Positions 4,093 to 21,381 of a stretch of 38,836 bases of DNA are shown here, in pieces; the first letter of the stretch is position 1; each line of letters starts with the position of its first letter. Where the stretch lies: contig JAGLOO010000038.1 in assembly GCA_023138875.1 (NCBI GenBank), forward strand, positions 1 to 38,836. Reading direction: 5' to 3'. A program made the position numbers and the translations under genes. The DNA is from Bacteroidales bacterium. Its GTDB lineage: Bacteria; Bacteroidota; Bacteroidia; Bacteroidales; GCA-2748055. A model generated the notes under the pieces. That model was not told the origin of the DNA. It ran no database searches and saw only the letters and a program-made list of their open reading frames with translations.

Positions 4093-5049
4093 ATGGGAGA
4101 ATCGTTGCGTCTTATATTGTTGTTTACCCCGCTCATTGCCGGTGCCATAGCCATTTTCTTTTCATTCCAGCTCATGAAGCGTTATGGGGTTCCGTTTGTA
4201 ATCAGCTATTTTTATTACCTGGTCTTTCTGTACATATTTGGAGTTTACAGCCTGATCGGATCCGGGGTCCTGGAACACCTGTTTATAAGGATGGAGATTG
4301 AACAGGATATCATTCACTCTGCCCGGTTGTTCATGATCTTCCTGGGTATACCGTTCATGGCACTGTCTACATTTATGCTGCTCCGGAGCATGGTGGAATT
4401 CTTTCAGAGGAAGATCGCACATGCTTTTACCCTCTCCTATTTTATTACATCCATACTGGCCTTTATCCTGTATGGATTTTTCATTATTAAACTCACCCGG
4501 TTCGAGCAGGGTGACTACCAGTTTCTGATTACTGTTCAGCGATGGGTGTTTCTGGGATTTATGGTATTCATGTACCTGGTTGTTTACCTGAATATTGTTA
4601 TATTAACAAGGAAACAGACGGACAGTTATGAAAAGAAGTTTATCAGGAGATTCGGATCCTGGTACCTCCTTTTTATGGTGTTAAGCTGTACATCATTTGC
4701 CCTGTCTCCCCTGCATGACATTGTGCCACATGTTTTTATTTTCATCTTTCTTTCCTGGCACCTGATCCCCATCCTATTTCTCAGTCTTTACCTGGAGAAA
4801 TATCACGGTCAATCCTCATCTGTGCAGGAAGATTTTGCAATAAAACTGATGGCATTTGCAGAAAAATTTGAGATATCAAAACGGGAACGGGAAGTAATAC
4901 AGCTCATCTGTAAAGGATTGGCAAACCAGGAAATCGGAGATTCACTATTTATTTCCCTTCAGACTGTGAAGGACCACATCCACCGTATCTTTGTGAAAAC
5001 TGGAGTAAAAAACAGGGTTCAGTTAACCAACCTGATCCGTTCAATGTAG
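4093..5049 (+). CDS. Membrane-anchored LuxR-type transcription regulator
   Basis: The N-terminal 230 residues hold about seven hydrophobic helices (roughly 6-28, 38-60, 78-100, 110-135, 148-170, 190-210 and 213-233), and there is no receiver or PAS domain. The last 65 residues form a LuxR/GerE helix-turn-helix: SKREREVIQLICKGLANQEIG, then SLFISLQTVKDHIHRIFVK (about 257-300). The DNA-binding domain is thus tethered to the inner membrane, and the membrane part is the likely sensor. The next gene starts 4 bases after its stop, so the two are probably cotranscribed. The half-site cluster upstream is the obvious candidate target. The ligand is unknown. Confidence 0.8.
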   Translation: MGESLRLILLFTPLIAGAIAIFFSFQLMKRYGVPFVISYFYYLVFLYIFGVYSLIGSGVLEHLFIRMEIEQDIIHSARLFMIFLGIPFMALSTFMLLRSMVEFFQRKIAHAFTLSYFITSILAFILYGFFIIKLTRFEQGDYQFLITVQRWVFLGFMVFMYLVVYLNIVILTRKQTDSYEKKFIRRFGSWYLLFMVLSCTSFALSPLHDIVPHVFIFIFLSWHLIPILFLSLYLEKYHGQSSSVQEDFAIKLMAFAEKFEISKREREVIQLICKGLANQEIGDSLFISLQTVKDHIHRIFVKTGVKNRVQLTNLIRSM

Positions 5050-5053
5050 AAAC

Positions 5054-5554
5054 ATGATGACAAGCAGAAAAAAGGTATTGAATGTCCTTGAAGATCTGAA
5101 CATCAAGTATGAGATCTTTGAACATCCCCCTGTTCCCACTGTAGAGGATGCGCTGCCCTACTGGAAAGAAATCGATGCCACCCACTGTAAAAACCTTTTC
5201 TTCAGAAACCACAAGGGCAACAGGCATTTCCTGGTCATCCTTAATCATGAACGGCAGTTAAAGATACGCGATTTGGAACAGCGCCTAAAGCAAGGTAAGA
5301 TCTCATTTGCCTCGCCTCAAAGAATGGAGCGGTACCTCGGTTTGAGCGGAGGATCGGTTTCGGTATTTGGTCTGATCAATGATCTGGAAAATCATGTTCA
5401 TCTTTTTCTGGATGCTGAATTACAATCTTCCAAAAAGATCAGCTTCCATCCCAATGAGAATACAGCGACAGTTGTGCTATCCTTCGATTCATTCCTGAAA
5501 TTCCTGGATTGGAGCGGTAATTCTTATGAATTCATTGCCCTTTATGATCCCTGA
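5054..5554 (+). CDS. YbaK/ProX-type aminoacyl-tRNA deacylase (prolyl-tRNA editing protein)
   Basis: The 166-residue protein matches the YbaK/ProXp family along its whole length. It has the N-terminal helix VLNVLEDLNIKYEIFEHPPV (about 7-28), the central ATHCKNLFFRNHKG (about 42-55) with the Lys expected to contact the substrate, and the glycine loop LGLSGGSVSVFGLINDLE (about 96-113). Such enzymes hydrolyse mischarged tRNA, typically Ala-tRNA-Pro, in the cytoplasm. Two ATGs (5054 and 5057) are possible starts. It lies 4 bases downstream of the membrane LuxR regulator, an unusual partner for an editing enzyme. Confidence 0.85.
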   Translation: MMTSRKKVLNVLEDLNIKYEIFEHPPVPTVEDALPYWKEIDATHCKNLFFRNHKGNRHFLVILNHERQLKIRDLEQRLKQGKISFASPQRMERYLGLSGGSVSVFGLINDLENHVHLFLDAELQSSKKISFHPNENTATVVLSFDSFLKFLDWSGNSYEFIALYDP

Positions 5555-5617
5555 CCCTATCTTCGATTGGGTATCGTTATTGATACTGAATAATTTAAAT
5601 ATTTTAAACATCTTATT

Positions 5618-5998
5618 ATGGAAAACAGAAATATGAAACAGCATGTCTCATTCGTTGGGGCACTTCACGTTGGATTTGGGATCCTGGGATTCCTGGTAGC
5701 CCTGGCAATTTACCTTTCTTTTCATTTTGCATTCGGATTTATAGAAGACGAACCCATTGCGCAAAAAGTGCTTTCACTCATTGGAAACACCCTTTCACTG
5801 ATCATTATCTTTTTCAGCAGTCTTGGTGTTATTGGCGGAATCGGATTGTTCTCCTACAGACCCTGGGCCAGGATCCTTGTGATGATCGTTTCGGCCTTCA
5901 ATTGCCTGAACGTACCCATCGGTACCGCCAAAGGTGTATATTCCATCTGGGTCCTCATGCAGAAAGAAACCATCGAACTCTTCGAACCTGCACCATAG
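5618..5998 (+). CDS. Small membrane protein of unknown function
   Basis: The 126-residue protein has three hydrophobic segments (about 10-35, 48-75 and 83-100). It ends with GTAKGVYSIWVLMQKETIELF, a tail common in small bacterial membrane proteins of the DUF4064-like type. There is no catalytic motif. The 63-bp gap upstream contains GTATC-N6-GATAC (5571-5586), a small inverted repeat that could be an operator or a weak end signal for the preceding gene. An AT-rich stretch just before the ATG is a possible promoter without a clear consensus. Confidence 0.65.
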   Translation: MENRNMKQHVSFVGALHVGFGILGFLVALAIYLSFHFAFGFIEDEPIAQKVLSLIGNTLSLIIIFFSSLGVIGGIGLFSYRPWARILVMIVSAFNCLNVPIGTAKGVYSIWVLMQKETIELFEPAP

Positions 5999-6044
5999 AT
6001 CACATCATTGATAGCCCTTTATTCCCTTCATACATAGGATGCAG

Positions 6045-6132
6045 CTAAATTCTTCAAGGTGTTTAAAAAAGGGACCTTAGCGAATGCGAAGCATGCGGTT
6101 CAGTCCCGTTAGAAATACCTTGAAGAATTTAG
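6045..6132. repeat. 88-bp imperfect palindrome between convergent genes
   Basis: CTAAATTCTTCAAGGT (6045-6060) is repeated exactly in inverted form as ACCTTGAAGAATTTAG (6117-6132). Inside lie a second pair, GGGAC (6071-6075) with GTCCC (6103-6107), and an apical ATGC-GAA-GCAT hairpin (6084-6094). It begins 9 bases past the hydA stop on the minus strand and 46 bases past the stop of the gene at 5618. Neither side has a T-run and no target duplication is visible. It may act as a bidirectional end-of-transcript structure, or be a REP/MITE-like repeat. Confidence 0.75.
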
Positions 6133-6141
6133 ACCACGTTC

Positions 6142-7923
6142 CTAGTATCGTACCCGTTCAGTATAATGGGTATGAAGCAATTCATGGGATTTATGACCCA
6201 GAGGTTCTCCCAGGAACTCTTTATAGATCGCTACAATCTCCGGATTTTCATGAGATTTTCTGATCTCCATGGACATGTCTTCTGCATAAATGGCCTCGGT
6301 CCTTTTCTTACGGATCTCTTCATTGGTAGGAATGGGTTGTCCACCACCACCTAGGCAGCCTCCGGGACATGCCATTATCTCGATGAAATGTAATGCCAGT
6401 TCTCCGCTTTTCACACTATTCATCAATTCACGGGCATTTACCAGGCCATGTGCCACAGCACATTTCAACTCTACTCCCTCCAGAAAACTCCACTCTTCCT
6501 TGCAATTCTCAATCTTTATCGTTGCTAATCTCACGCCTTCCATACCACGTACAGGAATAATATTCAACCCTTCAAACGGTACTTCCCTGCCTGTAATGAT
6601 TTCATAAGCCGTCCTCAATGCGGCTTCCATCACTCCACCTGTTGCACCAAATATGACACCTGCCCCCGTGGAAACACCCATGATGCTGTCATACTTATCT
6701 TCTTTCAACCTATTGAAATCCACACCGGCCTGCCTGATCATTCTGGCCAGCTCCCTGGTGGTTAAAACATAATCAACATCCTTATAACCACTGGAACGCA
6801 TCTCCGGTCGGTTGGCCTCATACTTCTTGGCTGTACACGGCATGATGGATACGCTTACCACATCTTTGGGATCCAGCTTCCTGACCTGTGCATAGTAAGT
6901 CTTTGCCAGGGCTCCGAACATCTGCTGGGGCGATTTACAGGTAGAAACATTGGGAAGGTATTCCGGGAAGGTATGCTCAATGAACTTGACCCATCCCGGT
7001 GAACAGGAGGTGGTCATGGGCAATGCCACGGAAGGATCTTTGTCTACCAGGGCTTTCTTCAGCCTTGTAAGTAATTCTGTTCCCTCTTCCATGATAGTAA
7101 GATCGGCTGAAAAGTCTGTATCAAGTACCGAATCAAAACCGAGCCTCTTCAGAGCCGCCACCATCTGTCCGGTCACCCGGCTACCGGGTTCATAGCCGAG
7201 CTCTTCTCCAAGACCAACCCTAACAGCGGGTGCCGTCTGCACAACCACATGCTTCTGAGGATCAAGGATAGCATCCCATACTTCATCCAGGTAGGTCCGC
7301 TCAACCAGAGCCCCGGTCGGACAACGATTGATACACTGTCCGCAGTTGGTACAGATTACATCAGCCATGGAGAATTCCTCAAAGGTGCTGATCTTCTGCA
7401 TATCTCCTTTATAAGCTACTGTAAGCGCATTGACTCCCTGTAATTGTTCGCAGGTTCTTACGCACCTCTGACAGCGGATGCACTTGCTGTCATCCTTCTG
7501 GATGGAAGGAGAAAACCTGTCAACGGTATAATCCTTAATATTGGTCAGGTCCAGAAAAATGTGGTCACCTACACTGAACTCGTTGGACAGGTTCTGCAAT
7601 TCGCATATCCCATTCTTATAGCATTTGGTACAGTCGGCATTGTGCTCCGAAAGAAGCAATTCGATCACATGCTTCCTGGCTGCACGCACCTTCAGTGAAT
7701 TGGTCAGGATCTGCATACCCTCACTTACAGGTACGGCACATGCTGCCAGCAGTGTCCGGCCCCCCAGTTGTTCAACCACACATACCCTGCAGTTTCCGGC
7801 CACACAAAGGTCATCATGATGACAGAGCGTCGGAATTTTGAAATTCAACTTTTTGGCAGCATCAAGAATGGTGGTTCCCTCGGGAACTTTTAACAGCATG
7901 CCATTGATAGATAAACTTACCAT
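6142..7923 (-). CDS. hydA: [FeFe]-hydrogenase catalytic subunit of a trimeric NADH-linked enzyme
   Basis: The 593-residue protein makes or uses H2 at its H-cluster. In order: a [2Fe-2S] ferredoxin domain (Cys34, 40, 45, 48 and 62 region), a His-ligated [4Fe-4S] site (H94-x3-C98-x2-C101-x5-C107), two [4Fe-4S] sites (C148/151/154/158 and C191/194/197/201), then the catalytic domain. The H-cluster motifs are TSCSPGW (305-311), MPCTAKKYE (361-369) and EIMACPGGCLGGGGQP (515-530). In the first motif the second cysteine of the common TSCC form is serine. The C-terminus ends LLHTHYTER, typical of HndD-like subunits, and there is no extra C-terminal cluster domain. It follows hydC and hydB with a 27-base gap, so all three should form one complex. 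Maturation genes hydEFG are not in the window. Confidence 0.95.
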   Translation of the reverse strand: MVSLSINGMLLKVPEGTTILDAAKKLNFKIPTLCHHDDLCVAGNCRVCVVEQLGGRTLLAACAVPVSEGMQILTNSLKVRAARKHVIELLLSEHNADCTKCYKNGICELQNLSNEFSVGDHIFLDLTNIKDYTVDRFSPSIQKDDSKCIRCQRCVRTCEQLQGVNALTVAYKGDMQKISTFEEFSMADVICTNCGQCINRCPTGALVERTYLDEVWDAILDPQKHVVVQTAPAVRVGLGEELGYEPGSRVTGQMVAALKRLGFDSVLDTDFSADLTIMEEGTELLTRLKKALVDKDPSVALPMTTSCSPGWVKFIEHTFPEYLPNVSTCKSPQQMFGALAKTYYAQVRKLDPKDVVSVSIMPCTAKKYEANRPEMRSSGYKDVDYVLTTRELARMIRQAGVDFNRLKEDKYDSIMGVSTGAGVIFGATGGVMEAALRTAYEIITGREVPFEGLNIIPVRGMEGVRLATIKIENCKEEWSFLEGVELKCAVAHGLVNARELMNSVKSGELALHFIEIMACPGGCLGGGGQPIPTNEEIRKKRTEAIYAEDMSMEIRKSHENPEIVAIYKEFLGEPLGHKSHELLHTHYTERVRY

Positions 7924-7950
7924 GATATCTTATGTTATCTGATTTTTCAA

Positions 7951-9111
7951 TTAGTAAATAATCTCTTCTGTAAAATTCTCAACGATGGAACCAAAGGCAT
8001 TTCCAACCGATTGTCCCAATCCACACTTGGATGCCCTTTTCATGGTTTTGGCCAGTTTGACCAGTTCATCCAGGTATTTGGAATTTTTCTCTCCGCGCTT
8101 CACTGCCTCAACACCTTTCAATAGTTGCTGGCATCCAACACGACATGGTGTGCACTGTCCGCATGATTCTTCAGTAAAGAAATCCAGGTAGTTGTGCAGC
8201 ACATTGTACATGGAACGTGTGGAGTTAAACAATTTCATGGACCCCCCTGTGGGCACTCCTTCAAATCCAATGATGGTCTCTTCAAACCTTTTCCTGGGAA
8301 CACAGAATCCGGAAGCGCCACCAACCTGTACGGCTTTTGTATCACCATCACCAAACTCTTCCACGAACTCATTCACAGACATTCCCAGTTCAAGTTCAAA
8401 AATACCGGCCTTTGGGGTATCTCCGGAAACGGAAAATACTTTCGATCCCCTTGAGTCCTTTGTACCAAGCTCCTTAAAGTGAGCTGCTCCATACTTCATG
8501 ATCATGACAGAGTGCACCAGTGTTTCCACATTATTGATGACAGTTGGTTTTCCGAACAAACCTGAAGTTGTGGGATAAGGAGGTTTGTTGCGGGGTTCAC
8601 CCCGCTTGCCCTCAATGGACTCAAACAAAGCACTCTCTTCACCACAGATATAGGCACCACTTCCCAGTCGAATCTCAATCCTGAAATTGTGATTGAATTC
8701 ATCCATTATCTGGTGGAATTTAGCGAGTTCCTCATTGAGCATAGGGATCAGGAATTTATACTCCCCCCTAAGATAGACGTAACCGTATTTTGCCCCCACA
8801 GCTTTTGCTGCGATTGCCATACCACAGAATACCTTTCCCGGGACCTGATCCAGGATCTCCCGGTCCTTGAATGTTCCCGGTTCTCCTTCATCCGCATTAC
8901 AAACAATATATTTTATGGGGTCTTTTTCCTGTGATGCGAACCTCCATTTCATCCCAGTTGGAAATCCGGCACCTCCCCTGCCTTTCAGGTCAGAGTCGAG
9001 CACTTCCTGACAGATGGCATCGGCCTCTATATTCATGATCTCTTTAAGTATATCCCTGCATTCGACTTTTTCGAAAATCAGATCTACCCTTTTTACATGC
9101 TTATCACTCAT
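7951..9111 (-). CDS. hydB: NuoF-like NADH/FMN subunit of the [FeFe]-hydrogenase, compact form
   Basis: This 386-residue subunit should oxidise NADH through FMN. It has the NADH-binding loop GRGGAGFPTGMKW (44-56), the FMN segment CNADEGEPGTFKDR (71-84), GSGAYICGEESAL (150-162), and one [4Fe-4S] site (Cys317, 320, 323 and 363). It lacks both the N-terminal thioredoxin-like [2Fe-2S] domain and the C-terminal ferredoxin domain found in longer HydB/HndC proteins (about 500-630 residues), so it is closer to plain NuoF. That reduces the cofactors in the complex and bears on whether it can bifurcate electrons. It lies between hydC (20-base gap) and hydA (27-base gap). Confidence 0.93.
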   Translation of the reverse strand: MSDKHVKRVDLIFEKVECRDILKEIMNIEADAICQEVLDSDLKGRGGAGFPTGMKWRFASQEKDPIKYIVCNADEGEPGTFKDREILDQVPGKVFCGMAIAAKAVGAKYGYVYLRGEYKFLIPMLNEELAKFHQIMDEFNHNFRIEIRLGSGAYICGEESALFESIEGKRGEPRNKPPYPTTSGLFGKPTVINNVETLVHSVMIMKYGAAHFKELGTKDSRGSKVFSVSGDTPKAGIFELELGMSVNEFVEEFGDGDTKAVQVGGASGFCVPRKRFEETIIGFEGVPTGGSMKLFNSTRSMYNVLHNYLDFFTEESCGQCTPCRVGCQQLLKGVEAVKRGEKNSKYLDELVKLAKTMKRASKCGLGQSVGNAFGSIVENFTEEIIY

Positions 9112-9131
9112 GTTATTGATATTTTCGGTTA

Positions 9132-9602
9132 TTATTTCCTGATATAATCACGCAGCACTTCTGTTACTTTCTCCGGAGTCAATTCAGTGTACGGTGTATC
9201 ATTGATCAACATGGCCGGCGCTTTATGACACCAGCCAATACAATTGGCTTCCAATAAACTGAATTTCCTGTCCGAGCTGGTTTCCCCCAGTTTTATCTTC
9301 AGGATATCCTCAATGGTGGAAAGAATGTCATTCTTACCCTTCATTGCGCATGAGATGGTTTTACAGATCCTGATGATGTATTTGCCCCTCACCTCGGTAT
9401 CAAGAAATGTATAAAAGGTGGCTGTTCCAAATACATCGGCTGCTGATATGTCCAGTTCCCTGGCCACATCAACCATGTCCTGTTTTGACAAAAAGCGGTT
9501 ACGTACAACCAGGTCCTGCAATATGGGAATCAGGCTTTCCCGTGTTCTGCCATGCTTATTGGCTAGATCCTTAACTAATTCGTTTTCAATAATCGTCTCC
9601 AT
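9132..9602 (-). CDS. hydC: NuoE-like [2Fe-2S] subunit of the [FeFe]-hydrogenase
   Basis: The 156-residue protein is a thioredoxin-fold [2Fe-2S] protein of the NuoE/HndA family. An N-terminal helical part (about 1-60) leads into VFGTATFYTFL, and the four ligands are Cys80, Cys85, Cys121 and Cys125 (ICKTISCAMKG ... EANCIGWCHKAP). It transfers electrons between the flavin subunit and the rest of the complex. It is the first gene of the hydCBA operon and starts at 9602. Upstream lie two Rex-like palindromes, so expression is probably controlled by the NADH/NAD+ ratio. Confidence 0.92.
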   Translation of the reverse strand: METIIENELVKDLANKHGRTRESLIPILQDLVVRNRFLSKQDMVDVARELDISAADVFGTATFYTFLDTEVRGKYIIRICKTISCAMKGKNDILSTIEDILKIKLGETSSDRKFSLLEANCIGWCHKAPAMLINDTPYTELTPEKVTEVLRDYIRK

Positions 9603-9656
9603 GGGCTCACAAATAGGTTAATGTATTTAGCTAATTTAAAGAACGTTAAAGATTCT

Positions 9657-9674
9657 TTGTTATTTATTTCACAA
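9657..9674 (-). promoter_or_regulatory. Rex-like redox operator, proximal to hydC
   Basis: On the minus strand this reads TTGTGAAATAAATAACAA, which matches the Rex consensus TTGTGAAnnnnTTCACAA (or TTGTTAAnnnnTTAACAA) at 12 of 14 defined positions. It lies 55 bases before the hydC start, where binding would cover a promoter. Rex is an NADH-sensing repressor of fermentation and hydrogenase genes. No rex gene is present here. Confidence 0.6.
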
Positions 9675-13631: not shown

Positions 13632-16217
13632 CTACTGGATCACCATTTCTTTCACAACAAACTGGTTTCCTATTCCTATCCTGAGGAGGTACAATCCCTG
13701 TTGCCAATTGTCTACAGACAGAGAAATGTCATGCTCTGCCGGAGCCAGGTTCTGTCTTTGCTCAGTATAGACCTTCCTGCCGGAAGTATCAAAAACCTCC
13801 AGACTTACATCGCTTTCCCTGTTGAGCACGAAACGTATATGGGCCTCGACCGAAACCGGATTAGGGAATACCAGCAGATAATCGAATAACTTTTGTTCGA
13901 TTCCGGGCATCGTACCTGTTCCTGTATACAGCGCTCCTTTTAACAACCTGCCTTCCGGGTATGAACTGCCTTTTTTATCAACCAGATAAGAGGATACCCA
14001 GTCGGGTCGATCGGGGTAGGATTCATATCCGTCCCAAAAACAGGCTTCCCATTCCTGGTCGGTGAGCCGTTTGAAATTGGTAGTTACTTCATTATGAAAA
14101 GATGAAACTGGTCCGGCATATGCCATATATTGTCCGGGATTACAGGGATTATCCGCTATGAATATCCCCATATTGATCATTCCATTCCCCACGTGCAGCA
14201 CATTTCCCACCACCGCCCCATTATATTCCGTGGGTTGAGTATGCACATCGGCCACCGTGAAATCCATTCCAAGTCCCTTCTGGATATCAAAAAAGAGATC
14301 GGTATACCAGCCGCTGATGGATGGACCTGAAACCATGTATTGGTTGATCATGGTCTTCAGGAAAGTCACCTCATCATCAGAGAGACGGATTTGTTCCAGT
14401 TCTTTCTGTGCAATGAATTCCAGTCTCTCCATGATCTCTGCATAGCCATTGTAATAGTCAACAATCTGATTCTTGCTTGCAACCTGCTCACCGGCCAGAA
14501 CATCACTGAAGAAGCCGGATGCATTCTCTGCAAATACTTTTAATTTACTGTACAGCCTGGGGTAGGGCTCTACATACGTGTATGGATAAGAACACCCGGT
14601 GCCTCCTGTATAGGATTGCTTGCCATAGAGGATGTTATCGTGCCGCAGCTGTGCCCATGAAGTAAGCTGGGTATTTAGCTTCTCATGATGCCATGCGGTG
14701 GTTTGCATAAAATAGGGCAATCCGCTGGACGACGGTAAAGGATTGAGGCTGCGGATGGCGTTGAGCCATGTATTGTAAAGCGACTGTTCCCAGAAGTCGT
14801 CATCGTAAGCATCAATCAGGTACTTTAGTCCGGCCATATTTGCAGCATATTTGAATTCATCCAGCTCACTCTCAAGAAGGGCCAGTGCATCTTCATTACC
14901 CAGGGCAGCCATGGCATCCAGCGGATCGGGTAAGGGCCTCCATATCTTCTGTCCGTTATAAACGATTCTGTCAAAAACCACTTCACTGAAAACATAGGAA
15001 TCCACCAGAAATTTCTGACCCAGCAATTTGTAAGAAATCGGCAGGTTGCCCGGATCGGAGGAAAAAGGATCTACAAAGAAGAAATTGGACATGATCTTTT
15101 GCCCATAGTCATCCGATGCATTCAGGTTTTCCATGAATGTATCGAAGGTCCCCTGCTGGAACAGATCCTGACTTTCGGGCAGCAACCGGTCGCTCAGGTC
15201 TTTCAACTCACCCGGTGTCATGTTATCATCCGGACCAACCATAAAAGAGATGATCTCCTCATGTTTGGTCAGGTTCTCCAGTTTCCCGCAACCGTACAGA
15301 ACCTCATTCAGCAACAATGCTCCCAGCTGCATCCGCCTTAACTCCTCATCTGTCCAATCCGGTTCCCAGGGATTCTCCGGAGGAGCGGTCAGAAGAAAAT
15401 CGATCCTTCCCAACCACATCATAGTCCTGAAATATTTCTCCAGGGTAATTTTTCCATCGGAGGTGTAAATCTCCTTATTATAATGTCCCCTGGGAGTGAA
15501 TTGACTGAAATCCAGCTTTCGCCGTTTGGTATCGGTAAACAGTGTCATGGAGATCATCTTCTCAGCATCAATAGCTACCATTAGCTCTTTGTACTTAACC
15601 GGTGTATCGTACTGTGGTAAATAATCCCCGTCTTCGGCAAGTGACAATGCCACAGATATAAAAAGGTCCACATCCTTCAGCACATCCACGAACCTGGTGT
15701 CGGCTGAATATGTATCAACCAGATCGGAAAAATGAGCATACATGGCATGCAGCAGTTCCAACAAATTGGGTTCCAGAAATTGCCACTCAATGGTCTGCAG
15801 GATGGCATCGTAGGAGTTGTGAAGGGTAGACAGTACAAAATCTGTGCTTATGAAGAGGGGCAGATCGCTGCTGTAAATACCGAGGAAGGCGCTGGGCCAA
15901 TCATACGATCCCAGGCGTTCCGAAACCATGAAGAAATTCTGACTGAGCATATTGTTCTCATCCTCCGTAAACCGGAACCTGCTGTTCAGTGAATCATACC
16001 AGGGAATGGCCGACAGGTCAGCGGGATATTGCCTGCTGGAATAGTAAGTGGTTCTGGGAGGATGGTCCCCCAGCAACTCCTGCGCACTGTAATCTTTATG
16101 TTCTTCAAGGAATTGCATGTAAGTGTCTGGGGAAAAGGTGCCTTGTGCTTTTACCTGCAGGGTGCAAATCAGCATTAAGGCTATAACCGGAAAAAATTTG
16201 ACTTGATTTTTCATCAT
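13632..16217 (-). CDS. DUF3160 domain protein with type IX secretion tail
   Basis: A protein of 861 residues from the chosen start. It begins MMKNQVKFFPVIALMLICTLQVKAQG, a clear signal peptide, which is why I prefer ATG 16217 over the longer frame from 16298. The body is a DUF3160 domain, with the characteristic N-terminal ...FISTDFVLSTLHNSYDAIL... segment and a long helical region. The last 90 residues (FPNPVSVEAHIRF ... LEVFDTSGRKVY ... QGLYLLRI ... KEMVIQ) are a type A type IX secretion sorting domain, so the protein is exported across the outer membrane and probably attached to the surface. DUF3160 has no established activity that I know of. Transcription converges with the DUF2721 gene. 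Confidence 0.85.
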   Translation of the reverse strand: MMKNQVKFFPVIALMLICTLQVKAQGTFSPDTYMQFLEEHKDYSAQELLGDHPPRTTYYSSRQYPADLSAIPWYDSLNSRFRFTEDENNMLSQNFFMVSERLGSYDWPSAFLGIYSSDLPLFISTDFVLSTLHNSYDAILQTIEWQFLEPNLLELLHAMYAHFSDLVDTYSADTRFVDVLKDVDLFISVALSLAEDGDYLPQYDTPVKYKELMVAIDAEKMISMTLFTDTKRRKLDFSQFTPRGHYNKEIYTSDGKITLEKYFRTMMWLGRIDFLLTAPPENPWEPDWTDEELRRMQLGALLLNEVLYGCGKLENLTKHEEIISFMVGPDDNMTPGELKDLSDRLLPESQDLFQQGTFDTFMENLNASDDYGQKIMSNFFFVDPFSSDPGNLPISYKLLGQKFLVDSYVFSEVVFDRIVYNGQKIWRPLPDPLDAMAALGNEDALALLESELDEFKYAANMAGLKYLIDAYDDDFWEQSLYNTWLNAIRSLNPLPSSSGLPYFMQTTAWHHEKLNTQLTSWAQLRHDNILYGKQSYTGGTGCSYPYTYVEPYPRLYSKLKVFAENASGFFSDVLAGEQVASKNQIVDYYNGYAEIMERLEFIAQKELEQIRLSDDEVTFLKTMINQYMVSGPSISGWYTDLFFDIQKGLGMDFTVADVHTQPTEYNGAVVGNVLHVGNGMINMGIFIADNPCNPGQYMAYAGPVSSFHNEVTTNFKRLTDQEWEACFWDGYESYPDRPDWVSSYLVDKKGSSYPEGRLLKGALYTGTGTMPGIEQKLFDYLLVFPNPVSVEAHIRFVLNRESDVSLEVFDTSGRKVYTEQRQNLAPAEHDISLSVDNWQQGLYLLRIGIGNQFVVKEMVIQ

Positions 16218-16321
16218 GCGGGGATCAGGTTTACAAGATACTGAAAACATATTGTTAATCATTACAAAGATGCATTCAATCAAGAAAGGGTTGCGCACTG
16301 CGGTAATTCAGTAAAAAGCCT

Positions 16322-16347: not shown

Positions 16348-16728
16348 ATGAAGGAACTCCGCAAATACTATCGCATCAAAGGCTCCCCGACCGAAATCTA
16401 TGCCGCTCTAACCAATCCTTTTCCCATTACACTGTGGACCGGCAGTCAGGCCGAAATGAAAGAGGAGCCGGAATCAGAATTTTCCCTTTTTGATGGTGAC
16501 ATAGAAGGGAAAAACCTCTCCTTTGAAAAAGATAGTAAAATTGTCCAGGAGTGGTATTTCGGAGATCAGAAAGAGAAATCCATTGTAACCATCACCCTTC
16601 GTCCTGACAGGCTCTACACCAAGATTGAACTCCATCATTCAAACATTCCGGATGAGGCTTTTGAAGATATAGCCCATGGCTGGGATACTTATTACTTCGG
16701 AGGATTGAAGGAGTATTTTGAAAAGTAA
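16348..16728 (+). CDS. SRPBCC/AHSA1-like domain protein
   Basis: The 126-residue protein matches the START-like AHSA1 fold: IKGSPTEIYAALTNPFPITLWTG at the N-terminus, a beta-rich middle (LFDGDIEGKNL ... IVQEWYFGDQ) and a C-terminal helix GWDTYYFGGLKEYFEK. Such proteins bind hydrophobic ligands or act as chaperone partners in the cytoplasm; no catalytic residue is evident. ATG 16348 is used instead of TTG 16327, which overlaps the promoter box. The large sensor gene starts 6 bases after the stop, so it may be coexpressed. A functional link is only suggested by position. Confidence 0.75.
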   Translation: MKELRKYYRIKGSPTEIYAALTNPFPITLWTGSQAEMKEEPESEFSLFDGDIEGKNLSFEKDSKIVQEWYFGDQKEKSIVTITLRPDRLYTKIELHHSNIPDEAFEDIAHGWDTYYFGGLKEYFEK

Positions 16729-16734
16729 CCGATA

Positions 16735-19700
16735 ATGCATGTAAGAAAACTCTCACTCTTCCTGTTCCTGTCCCTGCTTTTCACCGGAGTTTTAGGAAGA
16801 AGCATCGATGAAATCAAGCGCAGCGGAAAAATCTATATGGCCTTCACCAGTGATGATCTTAAAAACATCAATTACGACCTGGCGCTGGAATTTTCCCGGT
16901 ACCTGAATGTGGAATTGATCGAAGTGGAGATTGACTGGGACGAAGCCTTCATGAAGAACGGTTCAATCCCTCCCGGTCTTGAGACCGATCCGGATCTCAG
17001 TTATACTCCCGATGCCCTGAAGAAAGCAGACATCATCTGCTCTACTTTTACCATCATCGAATGGCGAAAGAAATTGTTCGGTTTCGCCGAAACACTACAA
17101 TCTGCCGAATTACTGATGATCAATAAAAGTGAGGATATCCCGGGTGGATTCGACGAGCTTGCGGGCAGGAAGATTGCATTCATGGGTGCTACAACTTTTG
17201 AACAGCACCTCAAAGAGATCAATGCATCCATCGGGGATGGGATCCGCCTGATTCCCACAAAAAGTAGTGTTGAGACTAAACGTCTGTTGCAAAATAAAGA
17301 GGTATATGGAATTGTTCTGGATGCCGATGAGGCATTAATTTTCAATGCAAACAGTGATCAGAAGTATAAAATTGCTTTCCCCATCAGTGATATTACCCGT
17401 ACAGCCTGGGCGGTGGACAAGAACAATCCCCTTATACAGGAAGTGGAGAATTTCTTCGAAACCATTGCCAGTAACGGGGTGCTGGATGAAATTTTCTACC
17501 GGAGGTTCGGGATTACCTACTCCTCTTACCTGGACAGGCTCAACAAAAACCTGAAGCTTGAACGATACCAGCGTGACCTGGACGAGATCATGGCTTCCAG
17601 GAAAATTGTGATTGCCCTCAGGGACCGCAATTTCATTTATCGCGATGGTGGCCAGAAACAATTCATGCATGCCCTGGCTGAAGAATTTGCGGATTACCTG
17701 GGAGTCACCCTTGAATTTGTGGTCACTCCCTATTTCGGAAAATACTGGGAAAACAAAGACGGGGTAGTGTTCAGGGATTCTTCCTATACTCCCGATTGGT
17801 TCAACTATTTCGATCTTGCATGCGAGATTTTTGCTCCCCTGGACTGGCGCACCAACAAGGTAAACATGGTCCCGGTGTATCCTTCGGCCTACACGGTTGT
17901 TGCCAGGAAAGATACAGAGATCAACTCCCTGGAGGACCTGAAACAACTTAGGGGCGTGACTGGAAGTGAGACTGTATATGAAGACATTCTGTTTGAAAAC
18001 AAGATCACCAACTATTATTACGAGCGAGTCAATAACTTTATTCCGGATGTGGCAGCAGGGAAGGCCGATTATACCATCATATACAATGCATTTTATGAAT
18101 TATCAGCCTATCCCGACCTGGAAGTCAAAATGGAACTGGGCCAGCTGGATGTAAGCTGGGCTCTCTGTAAGGACCAGCCGAAACTGCAGAAGGAGGTCCA
18201 GCATTTCATCGCTCAGTCCCGCCAGAAAGGATTAATAAAGGTATTGCTGAAGGCGTTACGGGGAAACACCCTCCAGACGCCAGAAGCATTTATCAACAGC
18301 TATTATGAAAGTTTCCAGACCGGACACCTTCCCTATGTCAACTATGGAGCCGATAACGGCCTTCCACAGGAGGATATTTTCTCCATTTTCCAGGACAGGA
18401 AAGGATACCTGTGGTTTGGCACAAATTCAGGCGCTGTAAGGTACAATGGAAGGGAAATGATTGTATTCAATCATGAACAGGGACTGCCCAATAATTCGGT
18501 GAGGGATATCAAACAGGACAGCAGTGGTACCATGTATTTCGCAACAACCAACGGAATCGCAAAATTCAGCGGTGATACTGTGTCCGACATTCTTTTGGAA
18601 GGAATCTCATTTAACAAAGTATTCATAGATTCCAGGGACAACAGGTGGTTTATCGGAGACGACGGGGTTTATCTGGAAAAGCAGGACGGCAGTATCCGGT
18701 TCCTGAATGCCGAGTTTTCGGTGTTGCCTGAACTCATTTACCACATTTCCGAGGATCCGGGGACGGGTCATCTGCTATTTGCCACAATCCTGGGTGTGTT
18801 TATGTACGATCGGGAAAACGAAAGAATAATTCAGCTGAGCAATACAGATAGTTACTCGCTATTCATAGATACCAATGACAGCATCTGGATCTCAACACGG
18901 AAGGGCCTTTACATCACACATTTATCAGATCTTATTGAAAACCGGTTTGATGCGGTATCCCGGAACCTGAATAAGAGACTTCGTTTCCCTGTGAACATCA
19001 TCTCCGATATTACAACCAATAAATTCGGTTCGGTCTGGCTGGTCACCGATTCCAGGATTCTCCAGGTCATCTCTACAGATCAGAAGCCCATCATCTATGA
19101 ACAGGAAATAGGAATAAAAAACAATAAAATCCTGTCATTCCTGATCGACCAGGAAGACAATCTCTGGATCGGCTTTTCGGGTGGATTGCAGCGACTGACC
19201 AACCGAAGAGGCCTTCGGAATTTTTACCCAAGCACCATTGACAGTTACATCTATTCTGTATTCCAGGATAACCAGAACCGCATCTGGATCACCTCCGACA
19301 ATGGAATCTTCTATTTCCGTAACGATCAGTTGGTGAATTTCACACCCCAGACCGGAACGAGCAACACCAAGTTTGCCGGCACACTGCTGCCTAACAACAA
19401 CATCCTGCTGTCCAACAATGAAGGATTATATGAAGTAAGCAGCCGGACCCTGGAGATCGTCAGGCATACCTTGTTCCACCAGATTGCCCACAGCCTGGAA
19501 AGCATCTTTGTGACCAGTAATGGGGAGATATTCCTGCTGACCGGAATCAATGGGATCATCTACTATTTTCCTACATTCTATTCCCAGCCTCTGCAGTTGA
19601 AAAATAAATACACGTCCAATATTTTACAGCTCATTGAACTGGATGGCCGGGTGATCGGAGGCAACAGCACCGGTTTTGTGACCTTTAACGGTACTACCTT

Positions 19701-21381
19701 TGAATTACTCCAGGAAACAGATTGCAATGTATGGTCCCTTCACAAAGAAGAAGGGAACAATGTATGGGTAGGGACCGACTGCGGAATAGGCCTGGTTCGT
19801 GATGGCCGGTTCGACCAGGTAGAACTCTCTACCTTTAACAGGGAACTGGTAATCAAATCAATTATTCCCGCAAAAAACAGAAATCACCTCTGGCTGGGCA
19901 CCAACAAAGGCTTCAGCTACTTTAATACAAATAGCCGGGAATTTGAATTTACCATCAATAGCAAGGATGGACTGAGTGGCGATGAGATCACCCCCGGTGG
20001 ACTCTTTATAGATAAGAATGACCTGCTTTGGGTCGGGACCTATCATGGCATATCCAACTTCAACATCAGGGCCAAATCGACCCTCACCTATTCCCCTGTA
20101 TGCTATATTGAGAAGATATTTCTGAATGGTGAACGTACCGATGCGAAGAACGGACATGCTTTTTCCCACAATGAGAACAATTTTATTTTTGAGATCAGTG
20201 CCCTCTCCTTCTCAGATGAAGCTTCGGTTGAATATGAATACTATTTGCGTGGTACCGGAAACAAATATTCTTCCTACCACCGTGGAAGGGAATATAAAGC
20301 CTATTATAACAACCTGCCCCCCGGAAAGTATGAGTTTATTTACAAGGCCAAGGGCAAGAATAACATCTGGGGATACGCAGAAAAATATGAATTTTCCATC
20401 AGTAAGGCGTGGTACAATACCTGGATATTCAGGATTTTGCTCTTTCTGGTTTTCATCTTTTTCACTTATCTCTTCTACATTATCAGGATCAGTGCCATCA
20501 AGGCACAGCGGAACAGGCTTGAACAACAGGTCAGGGAAAGGACCCATGAACTGGAGGTGGCCAATACAGAAATTGAAGCGCAAAGGGACTTTGCCCGCTA
20601 CCAGAGGGACCAGATCGCCCAGGCGCAAAAATCGATCATGGACAGCATCACCTATGCACAGACGATCCAGAATTCATTGCTGCCCTCCACTCAAATACTG
20701 AAAAAACTGCTTCCGGAACACTTCATCCTGTTTAGACCCAGGGATATTGTCAGCGGTGATTTCTACTGGGTCAGTAATCAGCAGGATCACCTCTATTTTG
20801 CTGCCGCTGATTGTACCGGACATGGAGTGCCAGGTGCATTTATGAGCATGCTTGGAATGGCTCTGATGAACGAGATCGTCAACAAACAGCCTCAGATCGA
20901 TCCGGATGAACTACTCAATAAACTTCGAAGCCAGATCATCGAAACCCTGCATCAAAAGGGCGACCCCGGTACAGCCAAGGACGGCATGGATATGGTGGTA
21001 TGCAAATTCAGCCGCAAGGACCGGAAATTGTTATTTGCAGGAGCAAACAATCCACTTTACCTGGTACGGGATGGTGACCTTACCGAGTACAAAACGGATA
21101 AAATGCCAGTATCCATCCATCTGGTAATGACTCCTTTCAATGGCCAGGAGATACAGCTCAAACCCGGCGATGCCATCTACCTTTTCTCCGATGGATATGC
21201 AGATCAGTTCGGAGGTCCGCAGAACAAGAAATTCAAGTACCGTACCTTCAAAGAATTGCTCATCGCCAACTCCGAAAAGGAGATGAGCGACCAGGGACTT
21301 CTCCTGGACAAATCCTTCGAAAGGTGGAAAGGAGATTTGGAGCAAATTGATGATGTGGTGGTCATAGGGTTAAAATTCTGA
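16735..21381 (+). CDS. Multidomain sensor phosphatase: two SBP domains, reg_prop propeller, Y_Y_Y, SpoIIE
   Basis: A 1548-residue single-chain receptor. In order: signal peptide (1-21), a solute-binding SBP_bac_3-like domain (about 25-268), a second one (about 283-525), a beta-propeller of reg_prop repeats (about 533-1112, for example GLPQEDIFSIFQDRKGYLWF and LLWVGTYHGISNFN), a Y_Y_Y domain (about 1122-1222), one membrane helix (WIFRILLFLVFIFFTYLFYI, about 1229-1250), a coiled coil (about 1252-1310) and a cytoplasmic SpoIIE/PP2C phosphatase (about 1322-1548). The phosphatase metal sites are visible in DIVSGDFYW, ADCTGHGVPGAF, FSDGYADQF and QIDDVVVIGLKF. The usual reg_prop sensor has a kinase or phosphatase but no periplasmic binding domains. 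I infer ligand binding in the periplasm controlling dephosphorylation of an anti-anti-sigma or similar partner, which is not encoded here. Confidence 0.88.
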   Translation: MHVRKLSLFLFLSLLFTGVLGRSIDEIKRSGKIYMAFTSDDLKNINYDLALEFSRYLNVELIEVEIDWDEAFMKNGSIPPGLETDPDLSYTPDALKKADIICSTFTIIEWRKKLFGFAETLQSAELLMINKSEDIPGGFDELAGRKIAFMGATTFEQHLKEINASIGDGIRLIPTKSSVETKRLLQNKEVYGIVLDADEALIFNANSDQKYKIAFPISDITRTAWAVDKNNPLIQEVENFFETIASNGVLDEIFYRRFGITYSSYLDRLNKNLKLERYQRDLDEIMASRKIVIALRDRNFIYRDGGQKQFMHALAEEFADYLGVTLEFVVTPYFGKYWENKDGVVFRDSSYTPDWFNYFDLACEIFAPLDWRTNKVNMVPVYPSAYTVVARKDTEINSLEDLKQLRGVTGSETVYEDILFENKITNYYYERVNNFIPDVAAGKADYTIIYNAFYELSAYPDLEVKMELGQLDVSWALCKDQPKLQKEVQHFIAQSRQKGLIKVLLKALRGNTLQTPEAFINSYYESFQTGHLPYVNYGADNGLPQEDIFSIFQDRKGYLWFGTNSGAVRYNGREMIVFNHEQGLPNNSVRDIKQDSSGTMYFATTNGIAKFSGDTVSDILLEGISFNKVFIDSRDNRWFIGDDGVYLEKQDGSIRFLNAEFSVLPELIYHISEDPGTGHLLFATILGVFMYDRENERIIQLSNTDSYSLFIDTNDSIWISTRKGLYITHLSDLIENRFDAVSRNLNKRLRFPVNIISDITTNKFGSVWLVTDSRILQVISTDQKPIIYEQEIGIKNNKILSFLIDQEDNLWIGFSGGLQRLTNRRGLRNFYPSTIDSYIYSVFQDNQNRIWITSDNGIFYFRNDQLVNFTPQTGTSNTKFAGTLLPNNNILLSNNEGLYEVSSRTLEIVRHTLFHQIAHSLESIFVTSNGEIFLLTGINGIIYYFPTFYSQPLQLKNKYTSNILQLIELDGRVIGGNSTGFVTFNGTTFELLQETDCNVWSLHKEEGNNVWVGTDCGIGLVRDGRFDQVELSTFNRELVIKSIIPAKNRNHLWLGTNKGFSYFNTNSREFEFTINSKDGLSGDEITPGGLFIDKNDLLWVGTYHGISNFNIRAKSTLTYSPVCYIEKIFLNGERTDAKNGHAFSHNENNFIFEISALSFSDEASVEYEYYLRGTGNKYSSYHRGREYKAYYNNLPPGKYEFIYKAKGKNNIWGYAEKYEFSISKAWYNTWIFRILLFLVFIFFTYLFYIIRISAIKAQRNRLEQQVRERTHELEVANTEIEAQRDFARYQRDQIAQAQKSIMDSITYAQTIQNSLLPSTQILKKLLPEHFILFRPRDIVSGDFYWVSNQQDHLYFAAADCTGHGVPGAFMSMLGMALMNEIVNKQPQIDPDELLNKLRSQIIETLHQKGDPGTAKDGMDMVVCKFSRKDRKLLFAGANNPLYLVRDGDLTEYKTDKMPVSIHLVMTPFNGQEIQLKPGDAIYLFSDGYADQFGGPQNKKFKYRTFKELLIANSEKEMSDQGLLLDKSFERWKGDLEQIDDVVVIGLKF

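Follow-up and report, generated by a model that had tools for sequence, protein, structure and literature searches.

The question raised by this locus is what a single polypeptide that joins two solute-binding protein (SBP) domains, a Reg_prop propeller, a Y_Y_Y-like domain and a PP2C-type phosphatase may sense, and on which partner it may act. The gene is located on the forward strand at positions 16735-21381 of the window, i.e., the whole analysed stretch of 38,836 nucleotides, and encodes 1548 amino acids without an internal stop; its reading as a receptor phosphatase is based on the open reading frame, Pfam, NCBIfam and a survey of related loci. The sequence-only reading had placed two SBP domains first, followed by the propeller and the Y_Y_Y domain, and had named a PP2C-type phosphatase as output, and all three assignments were borne out by domain searches and structure prediction. 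A signal-peptide-like start (residues 1-21; 16735-16797, forward strand as for all domains of the receptor), recognised by eye and by hydropathy, is followed by SBP domain 1 (about residues 23-262; 16801-17520), which is identified by Pfam SBP_bac_3 (43.2 bits at residues 96-256, cut-off 26.4), an AlphaFold model, Foldseek and residue counts. SBP domain 2 (about residues 266-510; 17530-18264) was not named in the Pfam scan of the receptor, and was assigned from an NCBIfam MltF match (69.3 bits, best stretch 275-506, far below the equivalog cut-off of 354), the model, Foldseek and residue counts. The model of residues 1-527, built from 36 sequences, has a mean pLDDT of 83.6 and a pTM of only 0.49, so that the placement of the two SBP domains relative to each other is not reliable; its best Foldseek match was the SBD1-SBD2 tandem of GlnPQ, and the periplasmic parts of BvgS, CdgH (5gzs) and EvgS were also among the first five. 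The propeller (about residues 531-1120; 18325-20094) is supported by a Pfam Reg_prop score of 94.8 bits and by PDB entries 3v9f and 4a2l. The Y_Y_Y-like beta domain (about residues 1121-1226; 20095-20412) scored 24.7 bits at residues 1159-1222, just below the cut-off of 26.6, and reached 38.0 bits in the related locus L110; it is further supported by the model and by a Foldseek match to 3ott. Beyond the N-terminus, hydropathy indicates one strong hydrophobic stretch (windows of 19 residues with starts at 1225-1239), and the model of residues 1121-1548 (pLDDT 83.6, pTM 0.56) shows a beta domain, then an unbroken helix of 86 residues (1230-1315; 20422-20679) which includes the membrane segment and continues as a linker, and finally a PP2C fold. 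The phosphatase domain itself (about residues 1331-1548; 20725-21378) is recognised by Pfam (SpoIIE, 71.4 bits at residues 1350-1547), by the NCBIfam SiaA model and by structure 6k4e, the latter both by sequence and by Foldseek.

This architecture, SBP1-SBP2-propeller-Y_Y_Y-TM-PP2C, is real, conserved and rare. It goes beyond a chance assembly, because each domain is conserved across 37 receptors, all 1000 residues or longer, whose tree divides into two halves: the mean identity per domain to the window receptor is about 60-67% for the nearer half and 40-50% for the more distant one. A search with the N-terminal 527 residues (E 0.001) in 61 genomes, consisting of the window's own and 60 relatives, returned matches in 27, of which 21 were strong (E below 1e-30) and 19 of these 21 belonged to the window's family. 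At least 43 related loci were found in 84,980 species' genomes, a lower bound, as the scan was seeded with a pair of peptide patterns and may lack records very close to the window's genome; all of the loci carry Bacteroidota or Chlorobi titles and MAG-type isolate names. The order SBP1-SBP2-propeller-Y_Y_Y-TM-SpoIIE is present in 31 of these 43 loci (L107 starts inside SBP1), and of the remaining 12, 11 leave the contig before the phosphatase and one, L085, is split. The receptor of L085 consists of two overlapping frames (5024-7261 and 7243-9669), owing to either a sequencing error or a real break. Across the phylum, a full match of the SBP pair was obtained in the own genome only (1/395); 17 genomes gave matches, 16 of them weakly in frames of 477-532 residues, with at most three candidates per genome scored for other outputs behind the SBP pair. 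What does not hold is the earlier view that a phosphatase behind Reg_prop and Y_Y_Y is the unusual part: PP2C domains placed after a propeller are commonplace in this genome, which has 17 SpoIIE matches, 16 besides the receptor, and five of the seven scanned among these 16 (picked among the longer ones) have the order Reg_prop-Y_Y_Y-SpoIIE without SBP domains. Two SpoIIE genes of the own genome are arranged head-to-tail in L053 (12042-12842 and 12842-16216), coding for a protein of 267 residues and for a Reg_prop-Y_Y_Y-SpoIIE protein.

A description of the combination of SBP, Reg_prop and SpoIIE was not found in the open-access literature among the matches listed. Likewise, no open-access paper was found on Reg_prop with SpoIIE (among the matches listed), on SBP_bac_3 with SpoIIE, or on partner-switching, Bacteroidetes and SpoIIE together, none of the open-access matches listed connected Venus flytrap domains with PP2C, SpoIIE or partner switching, and the terms DUF6272, "SiaC family" and "SiaB family" did not occur in that literature. 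The main text of a survey of PP2C domains (PMC12088040) is without the terms Reg_prop, SBP, Y_Y_Y and SiaA, and that of the open-access paper naming DUF1987 is without "Bacteroid-". The parts of the receptor are already known from elsewhere, namely tandem SBP domains on kinases (BvgS, EvgS) and on a cyclase (CdgH), as well as SiaABC with a cyclase output in Pseudomonas. With the sensor kinases BvgS and EvgS (PMC4352136) the receptor shares two tandem N-terminal SBP domains in a single chain (Foldseek matches 4q0c and 9ilw), whereas here a propeller and a Y_Y_Y domain precede the membrane and a phosphatase replaces the histidine kinase. CdgH of Vibrio cholerae (PMC5431781) likewise combines tandem SBP domains and an enzymatic output in one chain (Foldseek match 5gzs), the output being a diguanylate cyclase in CdgH and a phosphatase in the receptor described here. 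The propeller and Y_Y_Y ectodomain is shared with Bacteroides Reg_prop/Y_Y_Y receptors such as BT4673 (ectodomains 3ott, 3v9f and 4a2l), whose hybrid two-component output of kinase, receiver and AraC is absent here by Pfam. Those receptors are not known to carry SBP domains, nor is CdgH known to have a propeller. The attachment of tandem SBP domains to a PP2C domain via a propeller supports the notion that sensor modules are exchangeable across kinase, cyclase and phosphatase outputs.

As judged from its sequence and predicted fold, the phosphatase is of the SiaA type. The NCBIfam SiaA match reaches 204.7 bits over residues 1256-1548, far below the equivalog cut-off of 700, and SiaA-PP2C (6k4e) is both the sole solved sequence match at 1e-6 (E 6.5e-40) and the best Foldseek match (TMt 0.87, E 2e-20, at 33% identity), followed by RssB (3.5e-12), SpoIIE and the RsbU domain of Rv1364c. 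Residues D1337, D1342, D1359, D1486, D1539 and D1540, which we take to form the metal site, do not vary among 16 aligned sequences, nor among the 27 of a second count. The SiaA score was dropped as a discriminator between partners, because all eight other SpoIIE proteins of the genome run against NCBIfam match SiaA as well (147.9-199.2 bits), so that the class of the phosphatase singles out no partner. The unbroken helix 1230-1315 of the model fits an activation as in RsbU, where crossing helical linkers are reported to dimerise and activate the PP2C domains, a principle proposed to be general across sensor modules (PMC12143880). In a receptor paralogue, L091 (6126-10889), the segment from the TM linker to the end of the phosphatase is 43% identical, compared with 70-76% elsewhere, and the phosphatase groups in the tree with L054, another SpoIIE protein of the window's genome; L091 is probably the product of a domain swap.

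The neighbourhoods of the related receptors point to the partner of the phosphatase. In 13 of the 43 loci, all of them in the sister half of the receptor tree, the receptor gene is preceded on its own strand by genes for DUF6272 (SiaB-like) and SiaC proteins. The sister half comprises 18 loci (15 by the tree, and L109, L115 and L119 assigned by similarity). Within this half, 13 of the 16 loci with more than 700 bases of upstream sequence carry both genes; L115, L120 and L122 have no SiaB/SiaC upstream. The identity of the genes was established by Pfam for members of L106, L110 and L125, and by clustering for the rest. In nine of the 13 linked loci SiaC is the gene next to the receptor, with a gap of 222-472 bases (stop codon included), and gaps of 200-470 bases make a separate transcription possible; the genes found between SiaC and receptor code for SpoIIE proteins in L106 (TPR-SpoIIE by Pfam) and L108, a PALP protein in L117 and a nucleotidyltransferase pair in L125. 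Since more distant genes are common to few of the linked loci, the link to SiaB/SiaC has persisted through rearrangement. All 15 SiaC copies of the 13 linked loci keep a YFNTS motif (YFNTSTS or YFNTSSS), which aligns with T68 of the Pseudomonas protein. No SiaB/SiaC genes are present in the flanks of the window's half of the tree, so that the link to SiaC would be one of homology on this side. A common origin with the SiaBC-linked half was not established by the phosphatase-domain tree, in which the two halves form no single supported clade (51-76% bootstrap at the deep nodes). The receptor shares with SiaABC(D) of Pseudomonas aeruginosa (PMC7647112, PMC8457831) a SiaA-type PP2C domain on a membrane receptor, as well as adjoining SiaB (DUF6272) and SiaC in its sister loci with the phosphoacceptor Thr motif kept. 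It differs by its tandem SBP domains, propeller and Y_Y_Y domain from SiaA of Pseudomonas, which has two membrane segments and a HAMP domain, and further in that the genome is without a match to GGDEF (SiaD) and that SiaB/SiaC are not adjacent in the window.

A partner-switching pathway, as anticipated in the sequence-only reading, is therefore likely, but SiaB (DUF6272) and SiaC are more likely partners, in view of the 13 linked loci, than the anti-sigma factor and STAS antagonist that had been expected. In the latter case, the substrate of the phosphatase would be a STAS anti-anti-sigma factor, bound by an anti-sigma kinase of the HATPase_c_2 type whose gene lies elsewhere. Such an action on STAS proteins is known from PP2C domains of the superfamily in Bacillus, and the genome does encode three STAS proteins and eight HATPase_c_2 matches, two of them in short frames of 136 and 172 residues and six in frames of 375-1272 residues, which were set aside as presumed histidine kinases. 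However, none of the contigs of the own genome with the three STAS or the two short HATPase_c_2 genes carries a SpoIIE match, the phosphatase is much nearer to SiaA than to the structures of RsbU or SpoIIE, and the related loci tie it to SiaB/SiaC; with no support from the neighbourhoods, sigma-factor partner switching was dropped as first choice and is regarded as quite unlikely. The preferred partners, SiaB and SiaC, are represented in the own genome by four DUF6272 and seven SiaC proteins. Two SpoIIE genes lie less than 1 kb from SiaB-SiaC pairs (contigs C15 and C20), and on C82 a SpoIIE pair and a lone SiaC are 3.8-5.0 kb apart, so that neighbours are not always partners. The SiaB-SiaC pair on C2 adjoins no phosphatase, and its SiaC, with the motif YFNTSSS, is the best of the genome's seven for 15 of 15 receptor-linked SiaC proteins, from which we infer that this pair is the preferred partner. 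The phosphoacceptor is Thr in the SiaC proteins of C2, C15 and both copies of C31, and an aligned Ser in the other three. Trees of SiaB and SiaC were of no use in naming an orthologous pair: in them, the copies from this genome group with one another on long branches, so that the C2 pair is the best match by SiaC score only; for SiaB, the best own-genome match varies. SiaC is present in 21 of 21 genomes with a strong receptor match, but also in 19 of 40 receptor-less ones, so that the co-occurrence of receptor and SiaC is not specific; kinship is a further confounding factor.

With respect to the signal, the residues noted at the ligand site of SBP domain 1 are Arg111 and Thr104, joined by Asp196 on the window's side of the family. 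The printed profile alignments place Arg111 opposite the Arg of amino-acid binders, and Arg372 of SBP domain 2 was aligned by hand from a repeated W-R motif. Asp196 is present in all 19 receptors on the window's side and in none of the 17 from the SiaBC-linked half, which have Val or Thr instead, and aligns with an Asp of AncQR that contacts the alpha-amino group in such binders. In CdgH, the Arg corresponding to Arg111, R109, contacts the carboxylate of the ligand (PMC5431781). Judging from Arg111 and Asp196, SBP1 of the window receptor probably binds an alpha-amino acid, and that of the SiaBC-linked half probably something other than an alpha-amino acid. At the hand-aligned Asp196 site, SBP2 of the window receptor has Tyr450, and the other receptors have Tyr, Asn, Asp, Ser or Leu. 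The absence of an Asp in most of these rows, the similarity of SBP2 to MltF and the lack of Asp196 in half of the family would also be compatible with SBP domains that are structural or bind a protein or a cell-wall fragment, with the propeller or strain in the ectodomain providing the signal, as proposed for BvgS, whose ectodomain acts by conformational strain (PMC4352136). This we consider unlikely, given that neither Arg111 nor Arg372 varies in any of the 36 receptors, with identities as low as about 40%, and that most of the closest single domains of solved structure bind amino acids. The AHSA1/START-like gene at 16348-16728 (forward strand; Pfam AHSA1, 61.4 bits), which ends 6 bases upstream of the receptor gene, might alternatively encode the true cognate partner, binding a lipid or hydrophobic ligand and regulating the phosphatase from inside. 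It is found directly upstream on the same strand in 15 of the 43 loci in addition to the window, most close relatives having gaps of about 6 bases (the listed values run from -40 to 135), but on the window's side of the tree only: it does not adjoin the receptor gene in the sister half or, on the window's side, in L091, L098, L099, L100-L103 and L105, so that the receptor in general does not require it. We thus judge such a role very improbable, and of the earlier suggestion that this SRPBCC gene is an accessory, the close 6-base spacing stands, but not a need of the architecture for it. The gene probably starts at ATG 16348 and not at the listed TTG 16327; in many relatives the match begins at residue 8.

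The reading we favour with moderate confidence is that of a one-piece receptor which couples an extracytoplasmic small molecule to the dephosphorylation of a SiaC-type phosphoprotein. According to sequence and model, the protein is predicted to be exported and held by one transmembrane anchor, with SBP1, SBP2, propeller and Y_Y_Y domain outside the cytoplasm. A carboxylated small molecule would be bound by SBP1, and perhaps by SBP2, as suggested by the Arg and Asp pair of SBP1 on the window's side, which is typical of alpha-amino-acid binders. Closure of the SBP domains might then be passed on through the propeller and the Y_Y_Y domain to the continuous helix, which would dimerise the PP2C domains as in RsbU-type linkers. 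The SiaA-type phosphatase would strip from SiaC the phosphate added by the SiaB (DUF6272) kinase, as deduced from the conserved synteny of the sister loci and the published SiaABC chemistry, the best candidate in this genome being the SiaB-SiaC pair on C2. Free SiaC would finally act on an effector other than a GGDEF diguanylate cyclase.

Since the own genome gives no GGDEF match, the known target of SiaC, a SiaD-like protein, appears to be absent; GGDEF was matched in one of the 61 genomes, at 27.5 bits, and SiaC in 40. The interest of the locus lies mostly in the link to SiaB/SiaC and in the missing c-di-GMP output, and it makes testable the role of SiaC (DUF1987) in lineages where SiaC copies are numerous and GGDEF matches nearly absent. 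In the own genome, each of the three SiaB-SiaC pairs adjoins a gene for a protein of 1011-1027 residues, a TerB-like ABC-2 transporter of about 1020 residues (L127 13298-16378 on C2; L057 4491-7523 and L049 3906-6959 on C15 and C20, respectively). Two of the three were identified as ABC_tran plus ABC2_membrane by scan, and the third aligns throughout. All three N-termini match TerB below threshold (15.3-18.8 bits against a cut-off of 24.4), besides scattered other matches; no support was found for an FHA domain in this place. The first 255 residues match in 40 of the 61 genomes, the same 40 that contain SiaC. Among 33 families represented by one genome each, outside the window's own, 12 have both ABC protein and SiaC and 21 have neither, a pattern with a probability of 2.8e-9 if families were independent, which kinship and life style weaken. 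The ABC gene is located less than 6 kb from a listed SiaC in 56 of 120 places, in 32 of the 40 genomes, against a chance expectation estimated at roughly 2 (assuming about 6 SiaC per 4 Mb). A fourth such ABC gene (C51) has no SiaC on its contig, and near the receptor-linked SiaC genes there is no full-length one, with a weak ATPase-sized match in L117 only, so that the transporter is no more than a candidate output for this receptor. It is a tentative possibility that the SiaA/SiaB/SiaC switch has been uncoupled from c-di-GMP and drives the TerB-like ABC-2 transporter, with the receptor as an extracellular amino-acid or carboxylate sensor gating it via SiaC dephosphorylation; if true, this would make it a nutrient sensor that works through a phosphatase and has transport as its output.

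Some further features of the loci may be mentioned. Divergent from the receptor genes, the window encodes a DUF3160 protein with a type IX secretion sorting tail (13632-16298, reverse strand), which is found in seven of the 43 loci; DUF3160, an outer-membrane barrel, PepE and a histidine kinase are recurrent neighbours in the window's genus and family. The window contains no tRNA, 13 promoter-like sites (14.0 in shuffles) and 13 terminator-like sites (7.6, sd 3.0, in shuffles). In L136, a Reg_prop-Y_Y_Y-SpoIIE gene follows an array of SiaB-SiaC-SiaB-SiaC-SiaC, and SiaB-SiaB-SiaC fusions of 505-519 residues occur in L134 (2067-3584) and L135 (6822-8381). L110 (8211-9315) and similar loci contain two consecutive SiaB copies, and in several loci the second SiaB has the sequence SPNIGL in place of the glycine-rich GTGNIGL of the first, by which this second copy may be kinase-dead.
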